Assembly: GCA_020442065.1 (NCBI GenBank)
Contig: JAGRKZ010000019.1
Location: 1 to 64,000, forward strand
Direction of reading: 5' to 3'
Length of the DNA: 64,000 bases
DNA from: Bauldia sp.
GTDB lineage: Bacteria; Pseudomonadota; Alphaproteobacteria; Rhizobiales; Kaistiaceae
Part shown: positions 9,337 to 29,402 of the stretch, one piece after another
Numbering within the stretch: position 1 is the stretch's first letter
How the letters are laid out: each line of letters opens with the position of its first letter
Notes under the pieces: model-generated
Told to the model about the DNA's origin: nothing
The model's database searches: none
Seen by the model: the letters and a program-made list of their open reading frames with translations, nothing else
Program-made: the position numbers and the translations under genes

Positions 9337-10776
9337 ATGAACCTAGACTTCACTGACGGCAGGCGCCACAGCATTCCGATTGATGTTCTGGATTCGCTCG
9401 GTCGGGGGCGGGTCGCGGAACCGGTCGAGGTTGGGCTGACCTTCACAGTCTTCCGGCCGGCGCCGGACGGCATCGCCATTATCGACGCGTCTGGGCGGCC
9501 GGTGCTCTCTCAAATCATCGCGGCCAGCGGGGACGAACATGGCCGGCTCCGCTCCGCAACGGTCTGCTTCATTGCCGACGTTGCGCCCGGGGCCGGCCAC
9601 GCACGTTACACGGTCCATCTAGGCGACGATCCGGCACCGGATCGCGAAGCGACTGGCATCCGCCAGCTCCCGACCCAGCTCGGCGATGGCGTCCGGCGCC
9701 TCGACACTGGCGCCTATGAGATCGAGCTGTGCCGCGGGACCGGCGGCGGCGACGGCGGCAGCAAGTGGGGCATACGCCACTTCGAGCACAAAGATCAGGG
9801 CATCAACCTGATCCACGGCAACAAGAATGCCTTCGGCGGTGTCTACGGACCGTTTTTCACGCCGGAAAACGGTCTGGTGAATCCGCCGGCCCACATGGTG
9901 ATCGACGTTGAGCCGATCGCCGAGGGACCAGTGCTCTGCCGCTACCGGATGCGAGGGATGGTGCCGGACGGACTGCTGCCCGAGCTCCGTGGCAAAACGA
10001 TCGAGATCTGGTGGAGCTTCTGGCATCGCTCTCCGTGGTTTGTGCGCAGCTACTTCGTCGACGACTACGAGACGACCATCGACGGCCGGCCGGTCTCGAA
10101 CCGGATTACGGTCGGCGACGAGATCGAGAGCGGCAAGGGGAACCTGCTCCTCTCCACCTACCGCCACTACGGCGGCACCCGATACCGCGCCGGAGATCTC
10201 TATGCCGAGATTCTGCTCGAACGGCTGCGCGACCTGCAGGCTCGCAACCCGGACGCGGTGAGCGCGGCCATGGCAAAGCTAGGCATCGACCCCGATGAAG
10301 ACCCGGCGCGCTGGCATTGGGACAACTACTGGCGGATGTTTTGTGTGATCGAGGGCGCACTGCCAGCAGACTTACTCCGAGAGGAAGTGGAGGGCATCTG
10401 GCGTTCGGCCAACCGGATCGTCTGGTCCGACCGCGACCATAACATGATGAAGTACACCGAAGACGCGGTCGACGTGAACCGCGAGCCGCAGCAGACCATC
10501 TTCCCTCTCGATGCTCGCAAGACATGCGAGTACAGCCCGCTCACCGGCTACAGCTTCGTCCGCTACGTTAATCGTCCGGTGCCGCGGATGCAGATCGTTC
10601 AGCGCCACGACAGCGGTTGGGTGAACTGGGGCACCAACGGCGAAAATGAGTATCCCGAGATGCCGACCGGCTCGACGATCTGGTCCGCCTATGGCGCGTT
10701 CACTGACTGGGAACACACCGCCGACTGCATGGAGCAGCCGCTGGCGATCGCCGTCGGGCCGATGGAACGTGCCTGA
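9337..10776 (+). CDS. Unrecognised 479-aa protein, paralogue A; possible beta-sandwich/RIFT-type carbohydrate enzyme
   Basis: 479 aa, ATG after GAGGGGAGCG. No signal peptide, so cytoplasmic. The N-terminal 100 residues are beta-rich (IPIDVLDSLGRGRV, ATVCFIADVAPGAG, ARYTVHL) and resemble the N-terminal RIFT-barrel of YetA/PcRGLX-like polysaccharide lyases, a tentative match. The middle (about residues 130-275) is Trp- and His-rich: KWGIRHFEHKDQGINLIHG, IEIWWSFWHRSPWF, FVDDYETT. The C-terminus has SGWVNWGTNGENEYPEMPTG. A second copy lies at 14154-15581, and a core of about 145 residues is identical between them. Placed between the sugar ATPase and an isomerase, it probably acts on the imported saccharide. 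Lyase or hydrolase activity is inference only. Confidence 0.7.
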   Translation: MNLDFTDGRRHSIPIDVLDSLGRGRVAEPVEVGLTFTVFRPAPDGIAIIDASGRPVLSQIIAASGDEHGRLRSATVCFIADVAPGAGHARYTVHLGDDPAPDREATGIRQLPTQLGDGVRRLDTGAYEIELCRGTGGGDGGSKWGIRHFEHKDQGINLIHGNKNAFGGVYGPFFTPENGLVNPPAHMVIDVEPIAEGPVLCRYRMRGMVPDGLLPELRGKTIEIWWSFWHRSPWFVRSYFVDDYETTIDGRPVSNRITVGDEIESGKGNLLLSTYRHYGGTRYRAGDLYAEILLERLRDLQARNPDAVSAAMAKLGIDPDEDPARWHWDNYWRMFCVIEGALPADLLREEVEGIWRSANRIVWSDRDHNMMKYTEDAVDVNREPQQTIFPLDARKTCEYSPLTGYSFVRYVNRPVPRMQIVQRHDSGWVNWGTNGENEYPEMPTGSTIWSAYGAFTDWEHTADCMEQPLAIAVGPMERA

Positions 10777-12668: not shown

Positions 12669-14134
12669 GGCTGTTCGGTTTCAAGCCGGAGGACGGCGGC
12701 GCGGCGGGCGACACGATGCCCTTCTTCTGGGACGGCGAGTGGCACATCTTCTACCTCAAGCCGCGGATCGGCGCGTGGGGCTTCCCAACCCGCACCTGCA
12801 ACGACCTCGGGCACGTAGTCTCGTCTGATCTCGTCGAGTGGCGCATCCTTCCAGACGCTTTCGGTCCGGGCGGGCCGGGTTCGCCTGATGCCGACGGCAT
12901 CTGGACGGGCTCGCTGGTCGAGCACGAAGGCACGTTCCACTTCTTCTACACCGGCTACAACCGCGAACATCCCAACCAGCAGCGCATCTGCCACGCGACC
13001 AGCTTGGACCTCATCGCCTGGACCAAGGACCCCGCCAACCCACTCTTCGCCGCCGACCCGCGCTGGTACGAGCCGATCGACTGGCGCGACCCATTCGTCC
13101 ACCGCGATCAAGCTACCGGTCAGTTCCAAATGCTGATCGCCGCACGCGAGAATGAGGGCCCGATGCTCCGGCGCGGCTGCATCGCTCTCGCGACGTCAGA
13201 CGACCTCGCACGCTGGGATGTGCATCCACCGCTCTGGAGGCCGCGCCTCACCCACGTCATGGAGTGTCCGGAACTCTTCACGCTCGACGGATGGTGGTAC
13301 TTGATCTTCTCGCGATATTCGGAGCATGCGCAAACTGTTTATCGAGTGTCGCGCTCGCCGGACGGGCCGTGGGAGGCACGCCCGCTCGACTCGCTCGACG
13401 GCCGGCGCTTCTATGCCGCCAAGTCGTGCACCGACGGCACGCAACGCATTACCTTCGCCTGGACCCACGAGCGCACCCACGAGAAGGCGGCAGCTGACTG
13501 GGAGTGGGGCGGGCATTTTGGCTCGCCGCGGGAGCTCGTGGCGCTTCCAGAGGGAACGCTCGTGTGCCGCATGCCGGCGGCACTAGCTGCGACGCGGGGG
13601 CCCGCCGAGGCCATCGTTGTCGAGGGACAGTGGGGTGACTGGCGGCAATACGACGCGACGCTCGCGGGCAATGCCGTCGGCACGTATGGCTATGCCTTTC
13701 TCGATGTCGAACGGAGCGATCTGTGGATCGAGACCGAACTCGAGATCGAGGCAGGTACGCATTCGGCTGGCTTCCTGCTCGAGACCGACGACGGCCTCAG
13801 CAACGGCTACGAGATCGCTATCGAGCCGCTCGCCCGCCGGGTGACGCTCTCGCGCTGGCCGCACGCGATGGACCCACTGTGGCAGCGGCTCGCACCGGGC
13901 GAAATTGCCGAGCCCACAGTCGACACGCCGCTGGTGGTGCGCCCGTTCGCGATCATGCCTTCGGACAACCGTTACCGTCTCCGGCTACTGAGTAGGGGTT
14001 CGATGATGGAGTGCTTCGTCTGCGACCAAGTGGTGCTCACATTCCGGATTTACGAACAGGCGCCTCGTCCGCTCGGCCTCTTCGTTCAAGAGGGGCGCGC
14101 TCGCTTCCACCGCCTTGGTGTCTCGGCGACATAG
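12665..14134 (+). CDS. GH32-like five-bladed beta-propeller glycoside hydrolase
   Basis: 489 aa. The GH32/GH68 clan motifs are recognisable: an N-terminal Asp in GDTMPFFWDGEWHIFYL (taking the place of WMNDPNG as nucleophile, residue about 17), RDP in DWRDPFVHR (residues 141-143) and the acid/base Glu in MECPELF (200-201). After about residue 330 a beta-sandwich module follows (YGYAFLDVERSDLWIE, AGFLLETDDGLSNGYEI). There is no signal peptide, so it would act on an imported oligosaccharide. Family activities are on fructosyl or related linkages. The altered N-terminal motif puts it in a divergent subgroup whose substrate I cannot name. Confidence 0.8.
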   Translation: MRLFGFKPEDGGAAGDTMPFFWDGEWHIFYLKPRIGAWGFPTRTCNDLGHVVSSDLVEWRILPDAFGPGGPGSPDADGIWTGSLVEHEGTFHFFYTGYNREHPNQQRICHATSLDLIAWTKDPANPLFAADPRWYEPIDWRDPFVHRDQATGQFQMLIAARENEGPMLRRGCIALATSDDLARWDVHPPLWRPRLTHVMECPELFTLDGWWYLIFSRYSEHAQTVYRVSRSPDGPWEARPLDSLDGRRFYAAKSCTDGTQRITFAWTHERTHEKAAADWEWGGHFGSPRELVALPEGTLVCRMPAALAATRGPAEAIVVEGQWGDWRQYDATLAGNAVGTYGYAFLDVERSDLWIETELEIEAGTHSAGFLLETDDGLSNGYEIAIEPLARRVTLSRWPHAMDPLWQRLAPGEIAEPTVDTPLVVRPFAIMPSDNRYRLRLLSRGSMMECFVCDQVVLTFRIYEQAPRPLGLFVQEGRARFHRLGVSAT

Positions 14135-14153
14135 TCCTCTTGGAGATCGAGGG

Positions 14154-15581
14154 ATGGGAAATTGGCGCCATAGCATCCCGATTGATGTTGTGGATTGCTC
14201 CGCCCGGGGGCGGGTTGCGGAACCGGTTGAAGTGGGTCTGACGTTCACTGCGTTTCAGCCGGTAGATGGCGGTGTTGCGATCGTCGATGAGGCTGGTCGC
14301 CCAGTCCTTACTCAGATCGTTATGGCGGACAAGGACGAGGCGGGTCAGCTGCGTTCAGCGACGATCTGCTTCATTGCCGACGTTGCGCCCGGGGCCGGCC
14401 GTGCGCGCTACACAGTTCTGCTGGGCATTACGCCGGCTCCAATTTCGGCTGAAGGAGCGGGAATTCAGCAGCTGCCGCCGAAGCTCGGCGATGGCGTCCG
14501 GCGCCTCGACACCGGGGTTTATGAGTTGGAGCTATGCCGGGGCACGGGCGGAGGCGACGGCGGTAGCAAGTGGGGCATACGTCACTTCGAGCACAAGGAT
14601 CAGGGCATCAACCTGATCCACGGCAACAAGAATGCCTTCGGCGGTGTCTACGGACCGTTTTTCACGCCGGAAAACGGGCTGGTGAACCCGCCGGCCCACA
14701 TGGTGATCGATGTTGAGCCGATCGCCGAGGGACCAGTGCTCTGCCGCTACCGGATGCGAGGGATGGTACCGGACGGACTGCTGCCGGAGCTCCGCGGCAA
14801 AACGATCGAGATCTGGTGGAGCTTCTGGCATCGCTCACCGTGGTTCGTGCGCAGCTATTTCGTCGACGACTACGAGACGACGATCGACGGAAGGCCAGTC
14901 TCGAACCGGATTACGGTCGGCGACGAGATCGAGAGCGGCAAGGGCAACCTTCTCCTCTCCAGCTACCGACACTATGAAGGTACCCGATACCGCGCGGGCG
15001 ACCTCTATCACGCGCTCCTCCTCGAACGAATCCATGACCTCCGCAACCGCAACCCGGATTTGCTGCGGACCGCGGCCGCGAAACTCGGCATCGATCCCGA
15101 GGGGGACCCCGCGCGTTGGCACTGGGACAACTACTGGCGGATGTTTTGCGTGATCGAGGGCGCACTGCCGGCACACGTTCTGCGCGCGGAAGCGGAGGGC
15201 ATCTGGCGATCGGCAAACAAGGTAGTTTGGTCCGACGCCGGGCACGCGAAAGTCCACTACAGCGAAGACTTCATAGACGTAAGTCGTATGCCGCAGGAAT
15301 CGATCTTCCCGCTCGATGCCCGCAAGACTTGCGACTTCGGCGCCGATACCGGATACAGCTTCGTCCGCTACGTGAACCGGACGGTTCCACGGATGGATAT
15401 CATCCATCGACGAGAGTCGGGCTGGGTCAACTGGGGTACCAACGGCGAGAACGAATACCCGGAGATGCCGACCGGCTCGACCATCTGGTCGGCCTACGGC
15501 GCGTTCACTGACTGGCGCCACACTGCGGACTGTATGGAGCAACCTCTAGCGCTGTCTGTTGGGGCCATGGAGCGGAGGTAA
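14154..15581 (+). CDS. Unrecognised 475-aa protein, paralogue B of the gene at 9337
   Basis: 475 aa from the ATG at 14154; the frame is open 13 codons further back without a better start. It has the same architecture as paralogue A: beta-rich N-terminal region, Trp/His-rich centre, C-terminal GWVNWGTNGENEYPEMPTG. From ELCRGTGG to GKGNLLLS both proteins are identical over about 145 residues, and the DNA there differs only at scattered third positions. The N-terminal 100 residues and the region after about residue 300 are clearly diverged. This fits an old duplication with later homogenisation of the centre. It is the last gene of the sugar operon. The function is unknown, probably a step on the imported saccharide. 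Confidence 0.7.
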   Translation: MGNWRHSIPIDVVDCSARGRVAEPVEVGLTFTAFQPVDGGVAIVDEAGRPVLTQIVMADKDEAGQLRSATICFIADVAPGAGRARYTVLLGITPAPISAEGAGIQQLPPKLGDGVRRLDTGVYELELCRGTGGGDGGSKWGIRHFEHKDQGINLIHGNKNAFGGVYGPFFTPENGLVNPPAHMVIDVEPIAEGPVLCRYRMRGMVPDGLLPELRGKTIEIWWSFWHRSPWFVRSYFVDDYETTIDGRPVSNRITVGDEIESGKGNLLLSSYRHYEGTRYRAGDLYHALLLERIHDLRNRNPDLLRTAAAKLGIDPEGDPARWHWDNYWRMFCVIEGALPAHVLRAEAEGIWRSANKVVWSDAGHAKVHYSEDFIDVSRMPQESIFPLDARKTCDFGADTGYSFVRYVNRTVPRMDIIHRRESGWVNWGTNGENEYPEMPTGSTIWSAYGAFTDWRHTADCMEQPLALSVGAMERR

Positions 15582-16377
15582 TCGGTCACCCATCGTCCGT
15601 CGGAGGAACACAGCACGATGGGTCGAGCAATATACGGCCGGTGGGAAACAACCGCGCTCGACCCGGCGGCAGTGAGCTTCGAGACCGCCCCCATATCCGC
15701 GGAGAATGTTTGTTCCCGGTTACTTTCCCTCTACCAACCTCAGCTTCGACACCATTCTCTGATTGCTGACGTCCCCGCGAAATCGGCGCAGCTTCGCTGC
15801 CTTTTTCGGGTGACCTGTGTGCTCGAAAGCGGCCAGGACGACGAATTCCGTTCTCTACTAGCGGCAATTCTCTGGACCTGTGTAGGTGGTCCCGGAGACA
15901 CACAGCTCGCAATAGGGCGGAATTCCTCCCGTCCGCAAGAAGCAGTTTCAAATCGCCGTTGGGGCAGCGAGAAAAGAGAAAAATGCGGCTTCGTCTCGGC
16001 ACTCTCGACAGATTCTCTATATGTTCTCGCGCTGGCCTCTGGTCACCACCTTGCCCCTCTGGTCACCACCTGCCGAGCAAGGTGGTGACCAAAATAGCTC
16101 AATGATTTCAACGTGGTCACCACCTGCACTCTGGTCACCACCTGTTTCAAACATTATGCATGGGAAATGCAGAAGGCGGTCAGGCCATGACCTTCTCCTA
16201 TGGAATATGTATGGGAGCAGGTGGTGACCACGAAAGGTGGTGACCAAAGCGCCTATCCAACTGATCTGAAAGAGAAAAGTCTGGTCACCACCTCATCTCG
16301 GGATCAGACCAAGGTAGTGACCACGATCGGACCAGGCGCCCAAGTGAAGCTGTAGCGCCGAGTTCATACTCCGGGGA
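15582..16377. other. 800-base non-coding region after the sugar operon
   Basis: No protein-like frame is seen. A weak stem (CCCATCGT at 15589-15596 and ACGATGGG at 15615-15622, 18-base loop) follows the last operon gene and may end transcription. The second half holds the 12-bp repeat array described separately. Base composition becomes less GC-rich between about 15700 and 16300. Confidence 0.6.
16040..16323. repeat. Array of nine 12-bp repeats (TGGTCACCACCT) in both orientations
   Basis: Forward copies start at 16040, 16060, 16114, 16132 and 16282. Reverse copies (AGGTGGTGACCA) start at 16080, 16219, 16235 and, with one mismatch (AGGTAGTGACCA), at 16312. Eight copies are exact over 12 bp. 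Neighbouring starts are 16, 18, 20 and 20 bases apart within clusters, then larger gaps. Such short, dense, two-way repeats are typical of multimeric protein-binding sites such as iterons, operators or partition sites. No Rep or ParB gene is adjacent, and both flanking genes point towards the array. The function is unknown. Confidence 0.85.
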
Positions 16378-16656
16378 TCAGACGCCTTCGGCGAGTTGGT
16401 CGGCGGCGCGGACGACGTCCGCCGGCGACATTTCGGCGTAGGCGGCAAACTCAAGAAGCCACGGCTCCCAAGCGACGACCTGCTGCATCACGCCGCCGAG
16501 GAAGCCCGGCTGCTGCGCTCCGCTCCGGATGGTCTCCGGTCGAGTACCGGTGAGCAGCAGAAAGCGCTCGAGTCGCTCCGGATCCTCGGCGATGAAGGCC
16601 AGCGCCCGGATCGCCACCATCTCCGGATCAGCCTGTTGTTTCGCTTGGCGGATCAT
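16378..16656 (-). CDS. DUF3572 family protein
   Basis: 92 aa, about the usual length of this small alphaproteobacterial family. Helical throughout: ALAFIAEDPERLERFLLLTG, PETIRSGAQQPGFLGGVM, LLEFAAYAEMSPADVVRAA. The family is cytoplasmic and uncharacterised. It lies downstream of the amidohydrolase gene on the same strand with an 86-base gap. Its 3' end faces the repeat array and the end of the sugar operon. Confidence 0.85.
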   Translation of the reverse strand: MIRQAKQQADPEMVAIRALAFIAEDPERLERFLLLTGTRPETIRSGAQQPGFLGGVMQQVVAWEPWLLEFAAYAEMSPADVVRAADQLAEGV

Positions 16657-16742: not shown

Positions 16743-18677
16743 CTAGTTGAGCCCCTCCCGCGAAACTATGGCAGCATCTGCCACCATCGAGAGGAAACCC
16801 GCGACACAGGCGCCCGAATGCGGCCTGTCTGCAAGCGACGCAAGTGTCGAAACTTTCGGCCAACTGCGTGCCGCCTCGTTCTCCACCGTCGCGATCCGAA
16901 GGAACTCGGCGTAGGGGTCATCCCCACTCCCCTTCGGGATGTAATGAAGTGCACCCTCCTTGACGCTTGCCCGGTCGAAGATCGTCTCGCCTTCCTTGAT
17001 CGTCAGGTTGACTCTGAGCGTATCGATCGACTCGGGGTCGATTGCTGTGGGATCCCCAGACAGCACTACGAGGTCGGCGAGCTTGCCGACTTCGATCGAG
17101 CCCTTCGTGTCCTCCTCATGATGCGACCAGGCGGGCCAAATCGTCATGGCCTTGAGGGCTGTGACCACGTCCACCCGCTGCGCCGGACCCAGAATGTCTC
17201 CCGAGCGGGTGCGGCGCGTCACCGTCGCGTCGAGAACGCGCATCGAATCCGGAAACGCGACCGGAGCATCATGGTGCGACGAGAAGATCATGTCCCGCTC
17301 GACTAGCCATCCAGTGGGTGAAATGTCGTCGGCGTTGATCGGGCCGACGGTGTGTTCCCGATGCCAGTCGCCCCAATAGAAGGTGTGCATCGGGAAGAGC
17401 GACGGGAAGATGCGGAGAGTCTTTAGGCTGTCCACCTGATCCTCGCGCAAGAACTGCCCATGGATCAGGACGGGTCGAAGATCGGCGGCATTCCCATATG
17501 CCGTCTCCGCGGCGCGGATGGCCGCGATGAGGGTATCGGAGGCCCCCTCGCCGTTGGCGTGCGTCAGAATCTGCAGGCCATTGGCGTAGGCCCAGTCGAC
17601 AGCGTCAAGCACCTGCTCGTCGCTGGCCGAGGCATAGCCGCGGTAGCCCGGCGGATAGTTTCCGACCGGAGCGTAGTAGGGTCGGTCACGCAGCGCCGTG
17701 AACCCTTGCGGCGAGCCGTCGATGGTCAACTTCGCGCCAGCAACCCGGACACGCCCCTTGTAGTCGTCCGACACATTGGCCTTGATCCAATCGCGGTCGA
17801 TCAGAACGTCGGGGTAGATGGCGATGTCGATCTTGAACAGACCCTCTTCTCCTGCTTCCTGGAGAATGGCAGCGGTCGCTGGCGTCGCCCGTCCTTCATC
17901 GGCGGTGGTGTAGCCGTAGCGCGTCCAAAGGTCAGCTCCGGCAACCGCCATCGCCTTGAACCCATCGCGATCAATGTTGCCAAGAAGCTTTGGCAGAGCC
18001 AGCATGAACGCGTTCTCCTCGAGAACGCCATCTGGCTCGCCATTCGCGTCATGTCGGATCACCCCGCCGGCGGGGGCGACCGTCTCGCTCGTGATGCCCG
18101 CGATATCAAGCGCTTTCGAGTTCATCGCCCCGAGATGACCGGACTGATGCACGATGATGATCGGGACTTCGGTGGAGACGGCGTCCAGGTCGTCGCGCGT
18201 CGGGTGCCGCAGTTCGGAGAGTTGGGCGTTGTCGTAGCCAAAGCCGACGACGAGGTTCACGTCCCTGACGATGTCCTCGTTCGCCGCCATCCAGTCGCGC
18301 AGCGTCTGCTGCAGCGAGGCGATATCGGTGACGCCGCCGTCAGGCGGAGCAAGCAGGTTCGCTGAAAGCGCCTGCATGCCGCCCATCATGACGTGACCGT
18401 GCGCATCGACGAAACCGGGTATCAAGGCGCGCCCTGCAAGGTCGGTGACCTCGGTCCCGTCTCCGCGGTAGGCCATGACCTCCTCGACCGAGCCGACGGC
18501 GACGATCCTCCCATCCTTCACTGCGACCGCGTCAGCACGGGGCTGAAAGTCGTTCATCGTCAGAATCGGTCCACCGGTGAAAATCCGGTCGGCAACCTCC
18601 TGCGCCAGGGCGGGAAGACAAAGCTCTGTGAACGCAATACAGGTCGCGATGGCGACACCTTTTCCACGCACGGCCAT
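16743..18677 (-). CDS. Secreted amidohydrolase of the YtcJ-like family
   Basis: 644 aa; the ATG follows GGGGGA. An N-terminal signal peptide (GVAIATCIAFTELCLPALAQ) predicts export. The N-terminal composite domain reads ILTMNDFQPRADAVAVKDGRI, then the metal-binding GFVDAHGHVMMGG. Further barrel residues are in IIIVHQSGHLGAMN, KLTIDGSPQGFT, LQILTHANGEGASD (His), VLIHGQFL (His) and IFSSHHDAPV. These belong to the YtcJ/AepA-like, Zn-dependent amidohydrolase group; length and order are normal. The substrate is unknown. The last 60 residues extend beyond the usual end (DPYAEFLRIATVENEAARSW) without a recognised domain. Confidence 0.85.
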   Translation of the reverse strand: MAVRGKGVAIATCIAFTELCLPALAQEVADRIFTGGPILTMNDFQPRADAVAVKDGRIVAVGSVEEVMAYRGDGTEVTDLAGRALIPGFVDAHGHVMMGGMQALSANLLAPPDGGVTDIASLQQTLRDWMAANEDIVRDVNLVVGFGYDNAQLSELRHPTRDDLDAVSTEVPIIIVHQSGHLGAMNSKALDIAGITSETVAPAGGVIRHDANGEPDGVLEENAFMLALPKLLGNIDRDGFKAMAVAGADLWTRYGYTTADEGRATPATAAILQEAGEEGLFKIDIAIYPDVLIDRDWIKANVSDDYKGRVRVAGAKLTIDGSPQGFTALRDRPYYAPVGNYPPGYRGYASASDEQVLDAVDWAYANGLQILTHANGEGASDTLIAAIRAAETAYGNAADLRPVLIHGQFLREDQVDSLKTLRIFPSLFPMHTFYWGDWHREHTVGPINADDISPTGWLVERDMIFSSHHDAPVAFPDSMRVLDATVTRRTRSGDILGPAQRVDVVTALKAMTIWPAWSHHEEDTKGSIEVGKLADLVVLSGDPTAIDPESIDTLRVNLTIKEGETIFDRASVKEGALHYIPKGSGDDPYAEFLRIATVENEAARSWPKVSTLASLADRPHSGACVAGFLSMVADAAIVSREGLN

Positions 18678-18898: not shown

Positions 18899-19450
18899 AT
18901 GCACACCCCTCACGTTCTTCTGCCCGCGGTGGCCAACGAGCCGCCGCTTGCTGTCACGCCTGGGCCAGTCGAGACCTCGGGCGCCGCGGCCCTCCTTGCC
19001 CTCGACCTCGGCACCACCACCGGCTGGGCACGCCGCAATCTCCGCGGCCGTATCCTCAGTGGCACCGCGGACTTCAAGCCGCACCGTTTCGAGGGCGGCG
19101 GCATGCGCTACCTCCGCTTCGAGCGGTGGCTCGACGAGACACACCGCCTCGCGGGTGATGTCGAGGCCGTCTACTTCGAGGAGGTGCGCAGGCACGCCGG
19201 CGTCGACGCCGCCCACGCCTACGGCGTGTTCCTCGCCGGGCTCACCGCTTGGTGCGAGGAGCACGCAATCGCCTACCAAGGCGTCCCGGTCGGCACCATC
19301 AAGCGGTTCATCGCCGGCAAGGGCAACGCCGACAAGGCCGCCGTGATCGCCGCGGTCCGCGAGCGGGGGTTCGCCCCGGCCGACGACAACGAAGCCGACG
19401 CCATCGCCATTCTCCTCTGGGCCATCGAGACCCGGGGAGGCACGCGATGA
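18899..19450 (+). CDS. Phage RuvC-like Holliday-junction resolvase family protein
   Basis: 183 aa with an RNase-H-like fold: first acidic residue in ALLALDLGTTTGWA, second in VEAVYFEEVRRHAG, and a C-terminal acidic cluster in DDNEADAIAILLWAIE. Lys/Arg-rich KRFIAGKGNADK lies between. This short RuvC-like type occurs in alphaproteobacterial prophages and may resolve branched DNA before packaging. Its TGA overlaps an ATG at 19447, the start of what seems to have been the next phage gene. That frame is now occupied by a GYD gene lying antisense. Confidence 0.75.
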   Translation: MHTPHVLLPAVANEPPLAVTPGPVETSGAAALLALDLGTTTGWARRNLRGRILSGTADFKPHRFEGGGMRYLRFERWLDETHRLAGDVEAVYFEEVRRHAGVDAAHAYGVFLAGLTAWCEEHAIAYQGVPVGTIKRFIAGKGNADKAAVIAAVRERGFAPADDNEADAIAILLWAIETRGGTR

Positions 19451-20000: not shown

Positions 20001-20252
20001 ATGAGCACACCGCTCGAGGAAGCAAGGCGGGTGCTCTCGCAGCGCCGTGCCACCTATGGCGACCCGGCCGCTTCAATGGCAATGGTCGCAGCCCGCTGGT
20101 CGGTCACGCTGGGCCATCGCGTGACGCCGGCCGAGGTCATGCTCTGCATGATCGATCTGAAGCTGGCGCGCCTCGCCCACGACCCGACCCACCGTGACAG
20201 CATCGTCGACATCATCGGCTACGCCGCGCTCCTGCCGGAGGTGACCCGATGA
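20001..20252 (+). CDS. DUF6378 phage protein
   Basis: 83 aa, ATG at 20001 overlapping an upstream stop by ATGA. It contains the family pattern: LEEARRVLSQRRATYGDPA, VMLCMIDLKLARLAHDPTH and DSIVDIIGYAALL. It is a small helical protein found in phages and prophages that looks like a MazG-type (nucleotide pyrophosphohydrolase-like) helical bundle, although catalytic residues are not evident. Its stop overlaps the next gene by ATGA. The role in phage biology is not known. Confidence 0.7.
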   Translation: MSTPLEEARRVLSQRRATYGDPAASMAMVAARWSVTLGHRVTPAEVMLCMIDLKLARLAHDPTHRDSIVDIIGYAALLPEVTR

Positions 20253-20443
20253 AGTGGCTTCCTCACGGCTATGGCGGCAACCGCCGCTCGCCCGAAGATG
20301 TGAAGCGCGAAGGCTGGGTCGAGCAGGGTTTGCTGGCCGTCAACGTCGAGGACCACCGCTTGACCTGGCCGGAACGAGAATTGGTCAAGCAGCTTGGCGA
20401 GAAACTCTACGGCAAGCGCATCGAAGAGCGGAGGTCGGCATGA
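20249..20443 (+). CDS. Small phage-operon protein of unknown function
   Basis: 64 aa, linked by ATGA overlaps to both neighbours, which supports its being translated. Contains RRSPEDVKREGWVEQGLLAV and WPERELVKQLGEKLYGKR. The V-K-R-E-G-W pattern recalls small phage replication or transcription accessory proteins. No firm family assignment is possible. Confidence 0.55.
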   Translation: MKWLPHGYGGNRRSPEDVKREGWVEQGLLAVNVEDHRLTWPERELVKQLGEKLYGKRIEERRSA

Positions 20444-21009
20444 CGATCCGGGGTCGCAAACGGAAATCTGGGAAACGCTACCCCTGCGGCAAACGCACCC
20501 GCCTCGAGACGGAGAAGGACATCATGCAGACTGCGATCGAAGCCCGGCAGCGTCACCATGGCGTCACCGCCAAGCAGGCGAAGGACGAACGGCTTGGCAC
20601 AGCATTGGGTCGGCTCGCCTGGCGGGGCACGATCACATCGGCCCAGCACGAGGCCGGCCGCGAGTTCGGTGAGCTTTGCCGCCGCCACCACATGGTGCTC
20701 GGCCTGCCACTGCCGTCGCCGCGGTCCATCGCAGGCCTGCTCGTCAGCGGTGGCGTGTTCGGTGGATCCTCGGGCGAACCGGATGCCGTGCTGGTCGAGC
20801 GCCTCCGCCGACGGTTCGATGCCGCGACCGATGCACTCGACCAGTGCGATCGCGATCACCGGTTCTCTCGGGGGCGGCGACCGGCGCTGCTGATCTATCG
20901 CGTCATCTGTGTCGACGAGGATACGACACTGTGGCCCGAGGAGGACCTCGGGAATCTCCGCGTCGCCCTCAATGCACTAGTTCAGGTGTTTCGGATCAAT
21001 CGGCAATGA
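20440..21009 (+). CDS. Phage-operon protein, 189 aa, unknown function
   Basis: ATG at 20440 overlaps the upstream stop; an earlier frame extension is ignored. The N-terminus is very basic (TIRGRKRKSGKRYPCGKRTR), followed by helices: RHHGVTAKQAKDERLGTALG, AQHEAGREFGELCRRHH, LVERLRRRFDAATDALD. A C-terminal region with RRPALLIYRVICVDED follows. The layout matches uncharacterised prophage proteins in alphaproteobacteria located between RuvC-like and terminase genes, probably nucleic-acid binding because of the basic start. Last gene of this four-gene block. Confidence 0.55.
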   Translation: MTIRGRKRKSGKRYPCGKRTRLETEKDIMQTAIEARQRHHGVTAKQAKDERLGTALGRLAWRGTITSAQHEAGREFGELCRRHHMVLGLPLPSPRSIAGLLVSGGVFGGSSGEPDAVLVERLRRRFDAATDALDQCDRDHRFSRGRRPALLIYRVICVDEDTTLWPEEDLGNLRVALNALVQVFRINRQ

Positions 21010-21187: not shown

Positions 21188-24100
21188 TTAGTCGGCAAAT
21201 CGCCGGAGGAGTTCAGAGAGACGCGGGTCCGAAGCCGTCTCAGGTGCTTGCGCCAATAGTTCTAGTGCCTCATCGATCCCATATGGCCATGAGGATGCAT
21301 CTTCACCCAGAAGCACCCACAATAGTTCGAGTGTGGCCGCCGGATACGTACGTGCCGGATGATCTCCTTCACCATCGCCACGAGGGTCAAATTGCAGGTG
21401 AGCGTCTCGGATTGGAACGAGCCTCAGACGGACCAACTCCACTACGGCCGGCATAAGTTCGCCGCTCCCCAACGCAAAGTTCGCCAAGTGACTGGACATG
21501 GTTGGGGTGTGCAATGCCCGTTGTTTGGGCCAGACGCGCTGGAAGAAGGGAATGACTTTGTGCCGCCGGTCACTATCCGCGTCCCTGCTCCATCTACCGA
21601 GCTCCCACAAGAGCTGCTGACGGAACTCGTCATCCGCGTGGATGAGGACTTCGTGTAACTCAGTGTCGGTTACGAGGGGTTCGTCAGCGGCTGCCCCCCA
21701 CCCAGCGAGAACGAATCCTGCGAGGATAGTCTTCTCGCGTCGGCGAGTGCGCTCAGTTGCCCGCTCGATCATGCCTGCTTTGAGGGACTTAAATAGGGGT
21801 CGCGGCGGTACCGGAGCGGCCCAGAGAATTCCGTCCCAGAGAGCATCGCCGTCTGGACCCGAGCCAACGGCTACTGGGAGCAATAGTCGTTTGGTCCACA
21901 CTGGATCGATGGTGAACAGCCAGTTGAGCTGGAAGCCGAGCATGACGAGCGCATGACGCCGCATGTCCCCGGGTAGTCCAAGAAGGTCTTCAAGCCGAGC
22001 CGTCCAGTGTGGTGGAAAGCCGACGCCGGCTTTTCGCCCCTCTGCGGCCGGGTCCTTCATCACCACTTCAAACAGTTTTCCCACCGGTGCATTAAGGGCG
22101 TCCGTTGCCCATGAGTGAGGGGGCCGGGATCGCTCCGTGGCCTCGCTTGCCCGCATCGCTGTCAATAGTTCGCCCCAGAGCCCAGGGAGCACGCTCTCAG
22201 CATCGCTGTAGAGGCGATCCCGAATGGCATTCATCCATTCAGAGACCGGATAGGCGATCTCGCAAAGCGATGCAGAAGACAAACGGTGCAAAAGCGCCGC
22301 GATTGCCCTGACCATTCGGAGCGGATCCCTGGGACGGGTGTCCGCGGTAAGGAAGTCGGTCCAAGCCCAGCGCGGTGCATTCCCCGATCGCGCTGCATGA
22401 GCCAAAGCGCCAAATGCGCGAGCGGGCCGCTGGACCGCTAAACCCCGAAAGGGCTCGCGCTCAGTTTTAGTTTCTATGTCGAGCTTCCCGACCTCTTGCG
22501 CCCGACGAAGAATTTCAGAGAGCGGCATCACTAGCAGAGCGTCTGGCCGGCTGTCCGTTCCGACCCAGAACGTGGCAGGATCGTTCGAATCGGCAACCGT
22601 ATCGCCCGCATGCTCAGTCCATCTTGGCGCGGCTGTGCGCAGTGACTGGATCAACGCCGTCGCATCGAAGCTAAACGAAACGCCTTGGCTGGATAACCAA
22701 TGCAACCGACTCAGCCGATCGTGCGCAATGGCTTCTTCGAGCTCCCGGGGCAGCTCGATGTCCCAAGGGAACGAACCCGTCAGCAGTCGTTTCTCTAGAG
22801 CTTCGCGGGTATCATGAGAGAGAGCGACCCAGCGATCCCGCAAGGCATAGAGAAGGTCACGCTCGTGAACGGAGCCCCAGAACGTCCGGTCAGACAGAGA
22901 CAGAAAGATTTGGCCTGCCTCATCAGGAGTCACGAGGCCAGCCCCCGCGGCCCAGATCCGCAGGCGCGCGAAGACATACTCATCGCGCGAAGGCCAAGAG
23001 TGGATTTGTCGCCACGTGGCCTCCGGGTCGATGCCCGCGAGCCTAGTCATGAGCTTTTGGAAGCGGATGATCGGCCCGGTAATTCCGTAAGTGTCATCAG
23101 AAAGTTCCGGGGCGCCATCGGATTCGCGGCTGGTTTGCAAGTACAAGCGCTCGGTACCCGAGACATCCTGTTCAAGGGCGATAGCCGTGTCGAGATTGAC
23201 CCGGAAACAATCGACAGCGTAAGGCACGAATTCATCCGGCAGCGACACACCTTCGTAGGGGCGGGGGAAATCAACATCGACACTGACGACCTGATCCGGG
23301 TGGCCTTCTTCAGACCAGGTAAGCGGATGCGGAATTCCAAGGCTCGGTTTGACAGTGAGCTGTGGACGATAAAGTTCCGCGAACTCCCGAACGAGTGAGT
23401 AGGTCCACCCTTCCCGGGTGGCACGCCGCGCGATCTCGTACCTCCGCCGATCGACGTCGACGCGCCTATCCGCCCACGTGGCAATCAGCATTCGCCAGCC
23501 ATGTTTGACTGAGCTGGACGGCTGTTCTGACTCATGCAGCAGAACGCGTTGGATGTTGTCGATTGCGGAGGGATGTAGTCCCGGCTGATGCGCTGCCCAC
23601 CACAACGCCACGGGCGAATTCACACTCCGCCGAAGCCACAAACAGATGTCGGCTAAGCGGGGTGGAAGTTCGGCGTAGAATCGGTCGGGCGGCCCTCGAA
23701 CTGACGCGCCGGCTCGTGGCGCCCCACCCTCACGATCAAGAGCGATTACCTGAAGGACGTCGATCGCTTCACTCGGGACATCGCGACGACGAAATGTGTC
23801 CTCCGGGTCAGCTGGGGGTGGCAGAGGATCATTGTCCAGACAGAGCGCCTCAAACGGATCAAACGGCGCAAGCTTCTCGCTACCTCTGTACGAAGGAGCG
23901 GGTGTGGCGAATCTCTGCTGAGCATCGGCGACGAGAAGCCACTCTGCATTCAGCGGTTCGGCAGCCAATGCAACACGTCGAGCACCGGCGCCTATGGACA
24001 GAATGTGAGCGACTTGGCCACGTTCGTGTGGGGCGAGATATCGGGGACCGGGTGCCGCTCTCTTCAGTACCGTTTCAAACCACTTTCTATCATCTCGTGC

Positions 24101-24970
24101 GCGTTCAGCCCATGCCCTAAGGGTATCCCAAAGCGGCCCGAACCCCCGTGAGCTGTCGAATGGGATAGCTCGTACGCCCCTATGCTCCCAAAGAGCGATG
24201 GCGGTGCTTTGTTCGCCGCTCTGGAGGGCAAATAGTCGGCTTCGCGCGCCCGCCCTGAGATTCAGACCTTCAAGCAGATACTGCATGGGCGGATCGTCCG
24301 CGCTGTAACCAACGAACAGCACTTGGAATCGCGACAGCAGGCTCTGAATGAACCGAGTCGCCCAGCCAATAGAAAGATAGGCACGACCGAAGTCCGCGCT
24401 GGAGATGACGAACTCCTCGTCGGCAGCCTGTCGGTAGGCGCCGTCGACACGGCCATGCAAGTGCACCACACCGTGGAACTCGCGGTCGCTGGTCGGATCC
24501 GGCAAACCCGGAGGGCCATAGCTACGCAGAGCTGAATTGCATGCCTCGAAAAGGAGGTCAAAGTTGGTAGTCACCAAGCGCGTGACCCCGCGAACGGTCG
24601 CGAGGTCGAGCAGTATCCGGTGTGCATCAAGGTTTGCGTTCGGCTCCGGCCGAATCGCCTCCGCCACCGCTCCGCGGACATCTGCGGTCTCGAATTCCTG
24701 TTCGAGCAGCCCAAATATCCTGTCGGTCGCGACCAGGGTACCCACCCCGGGCAGCGGTTCCAGGGCGGTCGCCTGCTCCAATAGGCAGCGTGCACGGCTA
24801 TTGAGCGCGGAGCCCAGATTCACAATCACCATATTAGCGAGGTCAGCGAAATTTGGGAGCTTTGCCTCTGCCTGGCTCACGCCTGCACCGCAGAAAAGGA
24901 TGACCCTTCCTGCGTCCCGAGCCACGAGAAGCTCATCAGGGATGTCCGGGCCGTCCGCGAGGAAGCGCAT
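21188..24970 (-). CDS. Large SIR2-domain protein, DSR1-like candidate anti-phage defence NADase
   Basis: 1260 aa from ATG 24970 (a TTG two codons earlier is possible). Residues about 15-260 form a SIR2-like domain: nucleotide loop FCGAGVS (26-32), active-site-type Asn in LVTTNFDLLFE (134-138), conserved His in VVHLHGRVDG (170-173) and FVGYSADDPPMQ (219-230). The remaining 1000 residues are helical and lack a recognised enzyme domain, like the repeat-rich sensor parts of defence-associated sirtuins DSR1/DSR2. In those systems phage protein sensing triggers NAD+ depletion. It is a lone gene on the opposite strand to the surrounding phage-type genes. Domain and size support a defence role; activity and trigger are inference. 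Confidence 0.75.
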   Translation of the reverse strand: MRFLADGPDIPDELLVARDAGRVILFCGAGVSQAEAKLPNFADLANMVIVNLGSALNSRARCLLEQATALEPLPGVGTLVATDRIFGLLEQEFETADVRGAVAEAIRPEPNANLDAHRILLDLATVRGVTRLVTTNFDLLFEACNSALRSYGPPGLPDPTSDREFHGVVHLHGRVDGAYRQAADEEFVISSADFGRAYLSIGWATRFIQSLLSRFQVLFVGYSADDPPMQYLLEGLNLRAGARSRLFALQSGEQSTAIALWEHRGVRAIPFDSSRGFGPLWDTLRAWAERARDDRKWFETVLKRAAPGPRYLAPHERGQVAHILSIGAGARRVALAAEPLNAEWLLVADAQQRFATPAPSYRGSEKLAPFDPFEALCLDNDPLPPPADPEDTFRRRDVPSEAIDVLQVIALDREGGAPRAGASVRGPPDRFYAELPPRLADICLWLRRSVNSPVALWWAAHQPGLHPSAIDNIQRVLLHESEQPSSSVKHGWRMLIATWADRRVDVDRRRYEIARRATREGWTYSLVREFAELYRPQLTVKPSLGIPHPLTWSEEGHPDQVVSVDVDFPRPYEGVSLPDEFVPYAVDCFRVNLDTAIALEQDVSGTERLYLQTSRESDGAPELSDDTYGITGPIIRFQKLMTRLAGIDPEATWRQIHSWPSRDEYVFARLRIWAAGAGLVTPDEAGQIFLSLSDRTFWGSVHERDLLYALRDRWVALSHDTREALEKRLLTGSFPWDIELPRELEEAIAHDRLSRLHWLSSQGVSFSFDATALIQSLRTAAPRWTEHAGDTVADSNDPATFWVGTDSRPDALLVMPLSEILRRAQEVGKLDIETKTEREPFRGLAVQRPARAFGALAHAARSGNAPRWAWTDFLTADTRPRDPLRMVRAIAALLHRLSSASLCEIAYPVSEWMNAIRDRLYSDAESVLPGLWGELLTAMRASEATERSRPPHSWATDALNAPVGKLFEVVMKDPAAEGRKAGVGFPPHWTARLEDLLGLPGDMRRHALVMLGFQLNWLFTIDPVWTKRLLLPVAVGSGPDGDALWDGILWAAPVPPRPLFKSLKAGMIERATERTRRREKTILAGFVLAGWGAAADEPLVTDTELHEVLIHADDEFRQQLLWELGRWSRDADSDRRHKVIPFFQRVWPKQRALHTPTMSSHLANFALGSGELMPAVVELVRLRLVPIRDAHLQFDPRGDGEGDHPARTYPAATLELLWVLLGEDASSWPYGIDEALELLAQAPETASDPRLSELLRRFAD

Positions 24971-24976
24971 AGCCAA

Positions 24977-25352: not shown

Positions 25353-25898
25353 ATGCGCATCGTCCTCACCGAGCCCGATGATGTGCGCATCCGGTTCGAA
25401 GCGGCCTGCTTCCGTATTGGCCAGGGCTCGGCCAGGCAGGCCTTCTCGCTGGCCCTCAACAAGGAGGGGCGAAAGGCCTTCACCGCCCACCGCCGGGCGC
25501 TCGCCGAGCAATCATCGATTCCGCGCGGTACCGTGGCGGCGGCGATGAAGTTCAAGGGCTCGACGCGGTCAACGCTCGAGGCACGGATCATCGGCACCGG
25601 CCGCCACCTCCCGCTGTCGGTGTTCGGAGCCAAGCAATTCTCCTACGGCGTCCGCGCCAAGGTCTGGGGACGGGCGCAGACCTATCGTTCTGCCTTCGTC
25701 GTCGGCCGCTTCGGCGGCAACGTGTTCAAGCGGACGAGCAAGGCGCGCTTTCCGATCGAGCAGCTATGGGGTCCGGCAGTGCCGGTCGAGATGCTACGCG
25801 ACGTGGCACTCGCAGCATGGGAAGCGCAGCACGGAAGGGTGCTGCAGGAGGCACAACGCCTGATGGCATTGCCGTTCCAGATCGGAATGCGAAGGTGA
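25353..25898 (+). CDS. Prophage minor tail protein Z-like
   Basis: 181 aa, ATG at 25353 with GGAGG about eight bases before it. The family pattern is clear: QAFSLALNKEGRKAFTAHRR near the start, GTVAAAMKF, LPLSVFGAKQFSYGVRAKVW, then FVVGRFGGNVFKRTS and IEQLWGPAVPVEMLRDVA. This matches GpZ-type minor tail proteins of lambda-like phages and GTA-like prophages. No head, portal or other tail genes are nearby, so it is an isolated relic. Length is normal, so the gene itself may be intact. Confidence 0.75.
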   Translation: MRIVLTEPDDVRIRFEAACFRIGQGSARQAFSLALNKEGRKAFTAHRRALAEQSSIPRGTVAAAMKFKGSTRSTLEARIIGTGRHLPLSVFGAKQFSYGVRAKVWGRAQTYRSAFVVGRFGGNVFKRTSKARFPIEQLWGPAVPVEMLRDVALAAWEAQHGRVLQEAQRLMALPFQIGMRR

Positions 25899-26329: not shown

Positions 26330-27760
26330 ATGCTCGTCACCGATATCCCGGTCGAGCGGCTCGCGCCCTATGCGCGGAACCCGCGGAATAACACCAAGGC
26401 AATCGACGCGGTGAAGGCCTCGATCGCCGAGTTCGGCTTCCGGCAGCCGATTGTTGTCGACGAGCACATGGTCGTCATCGTTGGGCATACCCGGCTGGAG
26501 GCCGCGAAGGCCCTCGGCCTGACGGTGGTCCCGGTCCATGTCGCCGAGGGTCTTAGCCCGGCGCAGGCTCGTGCCTACCGGCTGATGGATAATCGCTCCC
26601 ACGAGAACGCCGAATGGGATGACGAGCTGCTCAAGCTCGAGTTCGGCGACCTGAAGCTCGACGGCTTTGATCTCGATCTGACCGGTTTCGACGCCGATCA
26701 GCTGTCCGAGCTGCTGTCAGGGGACTCGCTCGAAGGTCTCACCGACCCCGACGACGCACCTGGCGTTCCCGAAGTGAGCTGTTCGCGGCCGGGAGATCTG
26801 TGGATCCTCGGCGATCATCGCGTCCTTTGCGGTGATGCCACTGCCTTGGCTGACGTCGAGCGGCTGATGGGCGGCATGCTCGCCGACATGGCGTTCACCG
26901 ATCCCCCCTACAATGTCGACTACGGCGGCAAGGGAGGCGAGAAGTCGGCCGGCAATGGCCGCCGGATCCTCAACGACGCATTGGGTGACGCCTTCGCCAA
27001 GTTCCTCGAGGCTGCCTGCACCAATCTGCTCACGGTTACCAAAGGCGCCTGCTACGTCTGCATGAGCTCATCCGAGCTTCATACGCTGCAGCGCGCCTGG
27101 CTCGACGCCGGCGGCAAGTGGTCGACCTTCGTCATCTGGGCGAAGAACACCTTCACCCTCGGTCGCTCGGACTACCAGCGCCAGTACGAGCCGATCCTCT
27201 ATGGCTGGAAGGCAGGGACGGAACACTTCTGGTGCGGCGCCCGTGACCAGGGCGACGTCTGGCACCACGACAAGCCGCGGGTCAATGACCTGCATCCGAC
27301 GATGAAGCCGGTGGAACTGGTCGAGCGTGCAATCCGCAACTCGTCTAAGTCACGGGACATCGTACTCGATCTCTTCGGCGGCTCGGGGACAACGCTGATC
27401 GCATGCGAGCGCAGCGGCCGGGCGGCTCGTCTGATGGAACTTGATCCTAAGTACGTCGACGTGATCGTCACCCGCTGGCAGGAGTTCACCGGCAGGGCGG
27501 CGACGCTCGACGGTGACAACTCGACCTTTGGCGTTGTGAAGGCGGCGCGCCTCGGGGCGGACACGGAGGCGGTCGCTCAGGTACGTCGACCGGCGTCATT
27601 CCAATCGGGCCGGAATGCCGTAGGTGCCGTTGCGGGTGTCCATGAAGAGATCAAGCCGCGGCGGAAAGAACGTCAGCGTGGAATAGGCGACGAGCTGCAG
27701 ACCGATCAGCAGGTGCCCCAGGCGCCGAAAGGTCAGCGAACTCGAGCCAAAGTTCAGTAG
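26330..27760 (+). CDS. Phage ParB-N domain / DNA adenine methyltransferase fusion
   Basis: 476 aa. Residues 1-95 are a ParB/Srx-like nuclease-fold domain: VERLAPYARNPRNNTK, GFRQPIVVDEHMVVIVGHTR, RAYRLMDNRS. Residues about 165-395 are a DNA methylase with catalytic DPPY (AFTDPPYNVDYGG) and the SAM-binding motif at the C-terminal side (IVLDLFGGSGTTLIACE), the beta-class order. This fusion is common in alphaproteobacterial prophages and likely modifies phage or host DNA. The family normally ends near GDNSTFGVVKAARLG; here about 60 unrelated residues follow, running antisense into the DUF6512 gene. The native 3' end is therefore lost, marking a probable island edge near 27590. Confidence 0.85.
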   Translation: MLVTDIPVERLAPYARNPRNNTKAIDAVKASIAEFGFRQPIVVDEHMVVIVGHTRLEAAKALGLTVVPVHVAEGLSPAQARAYRLMDNRSHENAEWDDELLKLEFGDLKLDGFDLDLTGFDADQLSELLSGDSLEGLTDPDDAPGVPEVSCSRPGDLWILGDHRVLCGDATALADVERLMGGMLADMAFTDPPYNVDYGGKGGEKSAGNGRRILNDALGDAFAKFLEAACTNLLTVTKGACYVCMSSSELHTLQRAWLDAGGKWSTFVIWAKNTFTLGRSDYQRQYEPILYGWKAGTEHFWCGARDQGDVWHHDKPRVNDLHPTMKPVELVERAIRNSSKSRDIVLDLFGGSGTTLIACERSGRAARLMELDPKYVDVIVTRWQEFTGRAATLDGDNSTFGVVKAARLGADTEAVAQVRRPASFQSGRNAVGAVAGVHEEIKPRRKERQRGIGDELQTDQQVPQAPKGQRTRAKVQ

Positions 27761-28994: not shown

Positions 28995-29402
28995 TTAGAT
29001 CCGGTAGACCCGACCCCGTCCCTCGACCTTCTCCGAGGTCACCTCGAGGCCGAGCTTCTTCTTGAGGGCACCGGCGAGGACGCCTCTCACCGTGTGAGGC
29101 TGCCAACCGAAGGCGCCGACGATCTCGTCGATGGTGGCGCCCCTCTGCGACCTGAGCATCTCGATCAATTGATCCTGCTTGCTGCCGGGGCGCGTACACG
29201 TTGGCATGTCCTTCGTAGGCTTCTCGACCTTTGCGATGCGCGTCCGCTTCGGCTTCTCGAAGGTCTCGGTATCATTCCCGGAGGCATCCTGCTCGATGCC
29301 GAGCGCGTCGAAAGCCGTTCGCAACGCCAGCCCTCTGATCTGCTCGCTGTTCAGCGAAATGGCGTATATGGTCGTCACGCAGCCCGACAGCGGCAACACC
29401 AT
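28995..29402 (-). CDS. DUF3489 domain protein
   Basis: 135 aa. The C-terminal half is the DUF3489 domain: SKQDQLIEMLRSQRGATIDE, IVGAFGWQPHTVRGVLAGAL and KLGLEVTSEKVEGRGRVYRI. This is a winged-helix-like fold of unknown function common in alphaproteobacteria, often in mobile regions. The N-terminal 60 residues are variable with a Lys/Arg-rich linker (PKRTRIAKVEKP). The start at 29402 is the longest choice; a later ATG at MPTCTRPG would leave just the domain. A fragment copy lies at 28215-28328. Confidence 0.75.
   Translation of the reverse strand: MVLPLSGCVTTIYAISLNSEQIRGLALRTAFDALGIEQDASGNDTETFEKPKRTRIAKVEKPTKDMPTCTRPGSKQDQLIEMLRSQRGATIDEIVGAFGWQPHTVRGVLAGALKKKLGLEVTSEKVEGRGRVYRI

Follow-up and report, generated by a model that had tools for sequence, protein, structure and literature searches.

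Replication origins of the SaPI/PICI phage satellites consist of iterons lying just 3′ of the gene for the Rep helicase, and these iterons are read by the C-terminal domain of that same protein (PMC7581432). In Gram-negative PICIs, an AT-rich region lies between two sets of iterons, and a plasmid is replicated by the rep-ori module; according to the authors, this organisation is shared by no other replicon known in bacteria (PMC6092414). The origin of S. thermophilus phage Sfi21 is known in a further role, in that a fragment of it confers phage-encoded resistance in a copy-number-dependent manner (PMC6356513).

A Bauldia-like alphaproteobacterium has an array of short repeats, at the edge of a decayed prophage, that invites comparison with these systems. 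With a probability of roughly 0.86, the array is an origin of bidirectional (theta) replication, of the phage-satellite kind, that comes from a temperate phage of alphaproteobacteria and has been orphaned in the window—the whole stretch of 64,000 nucleotides that was analysed—because the vapE side of the prophage was deleted there. Sequence comparison identifies it as a conserved cis-element that is linked to a replication module, has a dyad layout and an AT-richer centre, and covaries with two to three winged-helix residues.

Within 16040–16323, eight exact copies of TGGTCACCACCT and one copy with a single mismatch lie in both orientations, in the order ++-++--+- (Table 1), and a count bears out the nine repeats described by an earlier, sequence-only reading of this DNA. 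Allowing up to two mismatches, the window holds 16 matches to TGGTCACCACCT against 3.0 expected, a number reached in 0 of 100 shuffles, and all exact matches fall inside the cluster. Nor is the repeat frequent elsewhere, a possibility which that reading had raised against itself: the 11-mer GGTCACCACCT occurs 18 times in the 5.36-Mb draft genome (eight times in the array and ten times as scattered singletons), with no second cluster of the window unit in the whole 5.36-Mb genome. The reading was also right that the region is gene-free, lying between a plus-strand gene that ends at 15581 and the convergent, minus-strand DUF3572 gene that ends at 16378, and that the mixed orientation and the spacing of the repeats rule out a CRISPR. 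The array is non-coding; the sole long plus-strand frame over it (15618–16088) is a mechanical ORF, and nothing matches its DNA before 16023 in G003, a congeneric genome (Bauldia sp. MAG JALHRF01, Hyphomicrobiales). AT content rises to 53% at 16142–16220, compared with 36% for the window. Scans of the window against Rfam and for tRNAs returned no matches, and its GC skew shows no replicon-scale switch.

Homology to G003 runs from 16023 through the array and the DUF3572 gene, resumes at the RuvC, DUF6378 and other phage genes, and extends to ~29308; it is interrupted by an amidohydrolase gene (16743–18677) and a SIR2-domain gene (21188–24976). Neither VapE nor the other outer phage proteins have a tblastn match in the window, and with these outer genes absent it follows that the vapE side of the prophage has been lost, leaving the array orphaned at the remnant edge. 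The suggestion of a plasmid or chromid origin is not supported, since the array sits in a chromosomal prophage remnant and its intact relatives are temperate phages of 35–55 kb. An iteron plasmid origin of the RepA/TrfA type, with its direct repeats next to a plasmid Rep gene, likewise does not fit the mixed orientation, the prophage context and the linkage to VapE.

Several features of the surrounding DNA deserve mention in their own right. The amidohydrolase gene (minus strand) lies between the phage DUF3572 and RuvC genes, a place where it is found neither in G003 nor in C46, another prophage of the window's genome. The second interrupting gene, also on the minus strand, encodes a 1262-aa protein with an N-terminal SIR2_2 domain, is inserted in the remnant relative to G003, and possibly serves in anti-phage defence. 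At 9337–10776 and 14115–15581, one operon carries paralogues of ~480 aa that share long, near-identical central stretches but have diverged ends, as after gene conversion or a recent partial duplication. The window's genome has three DUF3572 copies (16378–16656; C46:23405–23671; C211:34663–34893), two of which are phage-borne beside an origin array, while one looks chromosomal.

Table 1. Repeat units of the array and recognisable parts of the prophage remnant, by position in the window.
Feature	Position	Strand	Basis
Left breakpoint of prophage remnant	16023..16024		sharp onset of blastn homology to G003 at 16023
Iteron 1, TGGTCACCACCT	16040..16051	+	exact; identical in G003 and L223
Iteron 2	16060..16071	+	exact
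Iteron 3	16080..16091	-	exact
Iteron 4	16114..16125	+	exact
Iteron 5, ends left half-array	16132..16143	+	exact
Central spacer, AT-richer, putative melting region	16144..16218		AT content; 89% identity to G003
Iteron 6, opens right half-array	16219..16230	-	exact
Iteron 7	16235..16246	-	exact
Iteron 8	16282..16293	+	exact
Iteron 9, one mismatch, TGGTCACTACCT	16312..16323	-	conserved variant, same in G003 and L223
DUF3572 gene (PF12096), phage-borne copy adjoining array	16378..16656	-	PF12096
RuvC-like Holliday junction resolvase, prophage	18899..19450	+	phrog_159; 89% identity in G003
Prophage genes: DUF6378, 64-aa protein, 189-aa protein	20001..21009	+	domain and G003 comparison
Prophage neck/tail-completion protein	25353..25898	+	phrog_27; 92% identity in G003
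ParB-N/DNA methyltransferase fusion, prophage	26330..27760	+	PF02195 and PF01555; 91% identity in G003
Last recognisable prophage gene, right end of remnant	28995..29402	-	phrog_10315

Searching relatives for such clusters, as had been proposed, recovered the same array behind vapE both in G003 and in the viral contig L223. Over 309 bp, the window and G003 arrays share 95% identity: the nine sites agree at 108/108 positions, whereas the spacers are 94% and the centre 89% identical, compared with 65% for the non-coding DNA downstream and 88.5% for the DUF3572 coding sequence. L223 has the identical nine sites, including the mismatched ninth, and its VapE is 94% identical over the last 81 residues. 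In both relatives vapE ends ~75 bp before the first repeat, and so the statement that no cognate protein gene adjoins the array holds for the window only. Outward from the array, the G003 order is vapE, encoding a TOPRIM domain and the VapE helicase, followed by a Dda-like helicase gene; this prophage also encodes a large terminase and a portal protein, and further relatives of the array-bearing prophage are temperate-phage viral contigs of 35–55 kb.

With the G003 VapE as query, 160 loci were retrieved. Scanning them with a fixed consensus missed variants, and a de novo k-mer method was therefore used, which sought 10-mers clustered within 310 bp, counted inverted copies and applied a score cut-off of 3; of 24 Markov-shuffled controls, 22 fell below this cut-off and the other two scored 3.2 and 4.6. 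An array lies downstream of vapE in 132 of the 148 loci having at least 1.5 kb of downstream sequence, and in 73 of the 80 with the full 10 kb; in the remaining seven of these 80, no array reached the score threshold. A script derived the array units from consensus sites, many loci are partial, and MAG assignments may be mis-binned. Three records labelled Microbispora, Exiguobacterium and Stygiobacter (L068, L128 and L131) carry this alphaproteobacterial phage module and are probably mis-binned or mislabelled MAGs.

The family arrays have about 8–11 copies over ~240–320 bp, typically on the plan ++-++|--+-- around an AT-richer centre; the commonest orientation strings, ++-++---+-- and +++-++--+--, are this plan with an extra site. 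Exact orientation palindromy is in only modest excess, with a mean of 0.88 against 0.77 for random strings. The AT fraction is 0.50 in the central gaps, 0.43 in sites and spacers and 0.34 across the locus, and the centre is AT-richer than the locus in 107 of 110 arrays. Distance to vapE is 350 bp or less in 77 of the 132 loci, and greater, up to 7 kb, in the other 55. The units are homogeneous within a phage and differ between phages, all being variants of one theme (TGTCACCAACCT, TGTCACCACCT, GGTCCCAACCT, TGTCCCACTT, TGTCCAACCT and GTTCCCACCT).

VapE carries the VapE-like domain PF05272, and its helicase domain is homologous to that of PriRep1, presumably the SaPI initiator, in the structure with dsDNA (7PDS; phmmer 7e-48, Foldseek 2e-26). 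For the isolated C-terminal domain, 7PDS again ranks first in Foldseek, albeit weakly (E 0.03, prob 0.98), with VIA Z values near 6, as are common among winged helices. An AF2 model of the C terminus is a helix–helix–hairpin winged helix, in which residues 804 and 811 lie on helix 804–816 and residue 823 on the following beta hairpin; mean pLDDT is 81 for the whole protein and 85 for the domain, and the domain arrangement is not interpreted, the whole-model pTM being 0.44. VapE is, on this evidence, probably an AAA+ helicase with a C-terminal dsDNA-binding domain, and its homology suggests that it is self-loading.

Repeat letters follow the residues of this domain closely. Columns of a VapE alignment, numbered as in L052, were compared with two features of the repeat: TCACC versus TCCC (feature A) and CCAC versus CCAAC (feature B). 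Where the repeat has TCACC, residue 823 is Q (37/37), and where it has TCCC, the residue is R or K (76/76), which in dereplicated proteins becomes 30/30 for each; no other VapE column exceeds an adjusted mutual information of 0.34 with feature A. L102 and L128, whose VapE proteins are 95% identical in the body, differ in this residue, with Q and R respectively. For feature B, counted among dereplicated proteins, residue 804 is K in 23 of 25 with CCAC and R in 41 of 43 with CCAAC, while residue 811 is G (23/25) or S, T or A (37/43), respectively. Four of 126 proteins depart from the rule for residue 804. On a tree of VapE residues 1–735, the residues agree with 11 of 11 independent switches of feature A and 19 of 22 of feature B. 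Adjusted mutual information reaches 0.98 (A) and 0.65 (B) in VapE, compared with at most 0.37 and 0.10 in five neighbouring phage proteins used as controls (the Dda-like helicase, RuvC, a Sak4-like protein and two others). A third position of the repeat, T or G just before GTC, has no clear VapE column.

Out-of-sample contigs were drawn from IMG/VR by the repeat pattern alone, and every VapE read among them agrees with the code at 804 and 823; some of these contigs are the same as, or closely related to, loci of the first set, and the clearest new cases are L223, L229 and L266. The VapE of L229 (45% identity) combines residues RSQ at 804, 811 and 823 with TGTCACCAACCT, and that of L266 (47% identity) RAR with GGTCCCAACCT; L232, being R/G/Q, makes 811 the looser position. 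Within the window's genome, the C46 prophage has a K/G/Q VapE and a degenerate array of the GTCACCAC type. For the C158 prophage, with its R/A/R VapE, a unit of the form TCCC...CAAC was predicted first, and TGTTCCCAAC was then found at C158:23273–23535. Outside the family, Pseudomonas phage U5 pairs K/G/R with TGTCCCAC, as the code predicts. Covariation thus points to the VapE C-terminal domain, at residues 804, 811 and 823, as the determinant of origin specificity. The earlier proposal of a site for protein assembly was apt in kind, and of its three options (iteron, a parS-like site or a cluster of operators) the iteron is the right one, as the repeats covary with the domain by which a replication helicase would bind DNA.

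Other observations concern the placing of arrays and the reach of the pattern. In L080, L082, L104, L105, L126 and other Rhodobacterales loci, the array lies 1.8–6.4 kb from vapE, with other sequence between, and the code linking vapE and array still holds in these loci; an origin can thus change its place with respect to the gene of its initiator. The C46 array (~23753–24020, or L050 13754–14020) is across DUF3572 from where the window array lies, in the gap separating that gene from a divergent RuvC gene, and its degenerate units keep the plan ++-++|--+-. A second, broken copy of vapE, with a frame-disrupted C terminus, is present at C158:1025–2030 on the same contig as the intact one, and the window's genome has accordingly carried at least four such phage modules (two in C158, one in C46 and the window remnant). 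The window-unit pattern also matched eight other viral contigs of 44–95 kb (L217, L219 and L224, and also L218, L220–L222 and L225). These have paired palindromes such as AAGGTGGTGACCATTGGTCACCACCTT ~44 bp apart, in the letters of the window unit; VapE is absent from the stretch of the eight contigs that was examined, and the paired palindromes look like a different element, unrelated to the array.

A mechanism can be proposed in which each 12-bp unit would bind one VapE winged helix, with residues 804 and 811 of the recognition helix reading CCAC or CCAAC and wing residue 823 reading TCACC or TCCC. A pair of VapE rings would be loaded face to face by the two inverted half-arrays, the central region would melt, and the helicases would unwind outwards in both directions, while the fused TOPRIM domain would provide priming. 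The orphan array of the window could fire, or titrate an initiator, only if a matching VapE were supplied in trans, possibly by the resident C46 prophage, whose K/G/Q protein fits the window unit.

Titration raises the question of whether the host keeps the orphan array as a decoy for the initiators of infecting or resident phages, an improbable reading that is itself compatible with a phage origin. The array has stayed intact without vapE, an initiator that matches it is encoded in C46, a SIR2-domain gene lies in the same remnant, and the resistance conferred by the Sfi21 origin fragment offers a precedent; however, recent loss of vapE would explain the intactness equally well, and the window array is single-copy, whereas the Sfi21 effect depends on copy number (PMC6356513).

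Quite improbable, too, is a role in which VapE binds the array for copy control, loading or autoregulation and the origin lies elsewhere. Covariation proves a relation to VapE rather than initiation, and some arrays are several kilobases from vapE. Position, dyad layout and AT-richer centre nevertheless match the tested SaPI/PICI origins, the position also matches the annotated Sfi21 origin, and no second array was found in G003 or in the de novo scan of single loci (best cluster only).

Multiple short sites in both orientations could suit a regulator, and the C46 array does lie between divergent genes; a set of operators bound by a repressor of the phage, or by another transcription factor, is, however, very improbable, given that in the window, G003 and L223 the array follows the end of a gene or lies where two genes converge, and that its letters vary with residues of VapE but not with those of the five other phage proteins. 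A packaging (cos/pac) or partition (parS) site is scarcely tenable: the array is phage-borne and multi-site and a ParB-N/methyltransferase gene lies 10 kb away, yet its links are with the replication module and with VapE specificity, not with a terminase or ParB, its 12-mers are not full palindromes as parS sites are, and no parAB pair occurs among the genes examined near it.

The reading as a phage origin makes origins predictable across a large and unstudied family of temperate phages of alphaproteobacteria, and places in complete phages an architecture described as unique to phage satellites. Near-perfect covariation makes initiator–origin specificity, and its evolution, directly testable with natural protein pairs, and a simple annotation rule for such origins follows: check behind vapE. 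No description of VapE-phage origins or of a residue–repeat code was found in the open-access literature that was searched. A wider idea, tentative and unlikely, is that all VapE-type phage initiators go back to a single ancient architecture of the origin and have in common a short winged-helix code of two to three residues, and that orphan copies work in trans, either as decoys or as origins in the chromosome that a resident prophage fires when its VapE matches. Were such a shared code true, the protein by itself would suffice to find the origin of an uncultured phage and to predict its letters.

Phages of other phyla and classes apparently have the same architecture. Staphylococcus phage 2638A, Bacteroides phage Bacuni_F1, Pseudomonas phages U5, Haddon and LPPA36 and Marinobacter phage PS3 all have a two-orientation array behind vapE (RcCWillis is ambiguous), in the order ++-++--++ in 2638A and ++-++---++- in the Pseudomonas phages; they differ in their units, and their VapE proteins are 30–40% identical. 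Among the features in the stretches examined, none of these phages has an origin annotation. Phage P4 alpha protein initiates at its own cis sites (ori/crr) and, like VapE, is a primase–helicase fusion; P4, however, is a satellite. The 302-bp origin/PER region of Sfi21 is similarly a non-coding repeat region of ~300 bp directly 3′ of a primase–helicase gene, within a similar module (Sak4-like protein, helicase and primase), and is annotated as an origin and phage-inhibitory sequence. Its initiator, orf382, is of the Pox_D5/DUF5906 type and not a VapE, and its repeats are AT-rich, GTTACT-like and less regular.

Like the SaPI/PICI Rep-ori, the array family has two sets of iterons with an AT-rich centre between them, and G003, L223 and their relatives have an AAA+ helicase initiator, VapE, the gene for which is absent from the window. 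A PICI as the element itself is ruled out, since the array carriers are complete phages with virion genes (the large terminase and portal of G003; the 35–55 kb relatives). The VapE arrays differ from their satellite counterparts in residing on complete temperate phages with terminase and portal, in having an initiator fused to a TOPRIM primase, in often lying several kilobases from the helicase gene, and in obeying a within-family specificity code.
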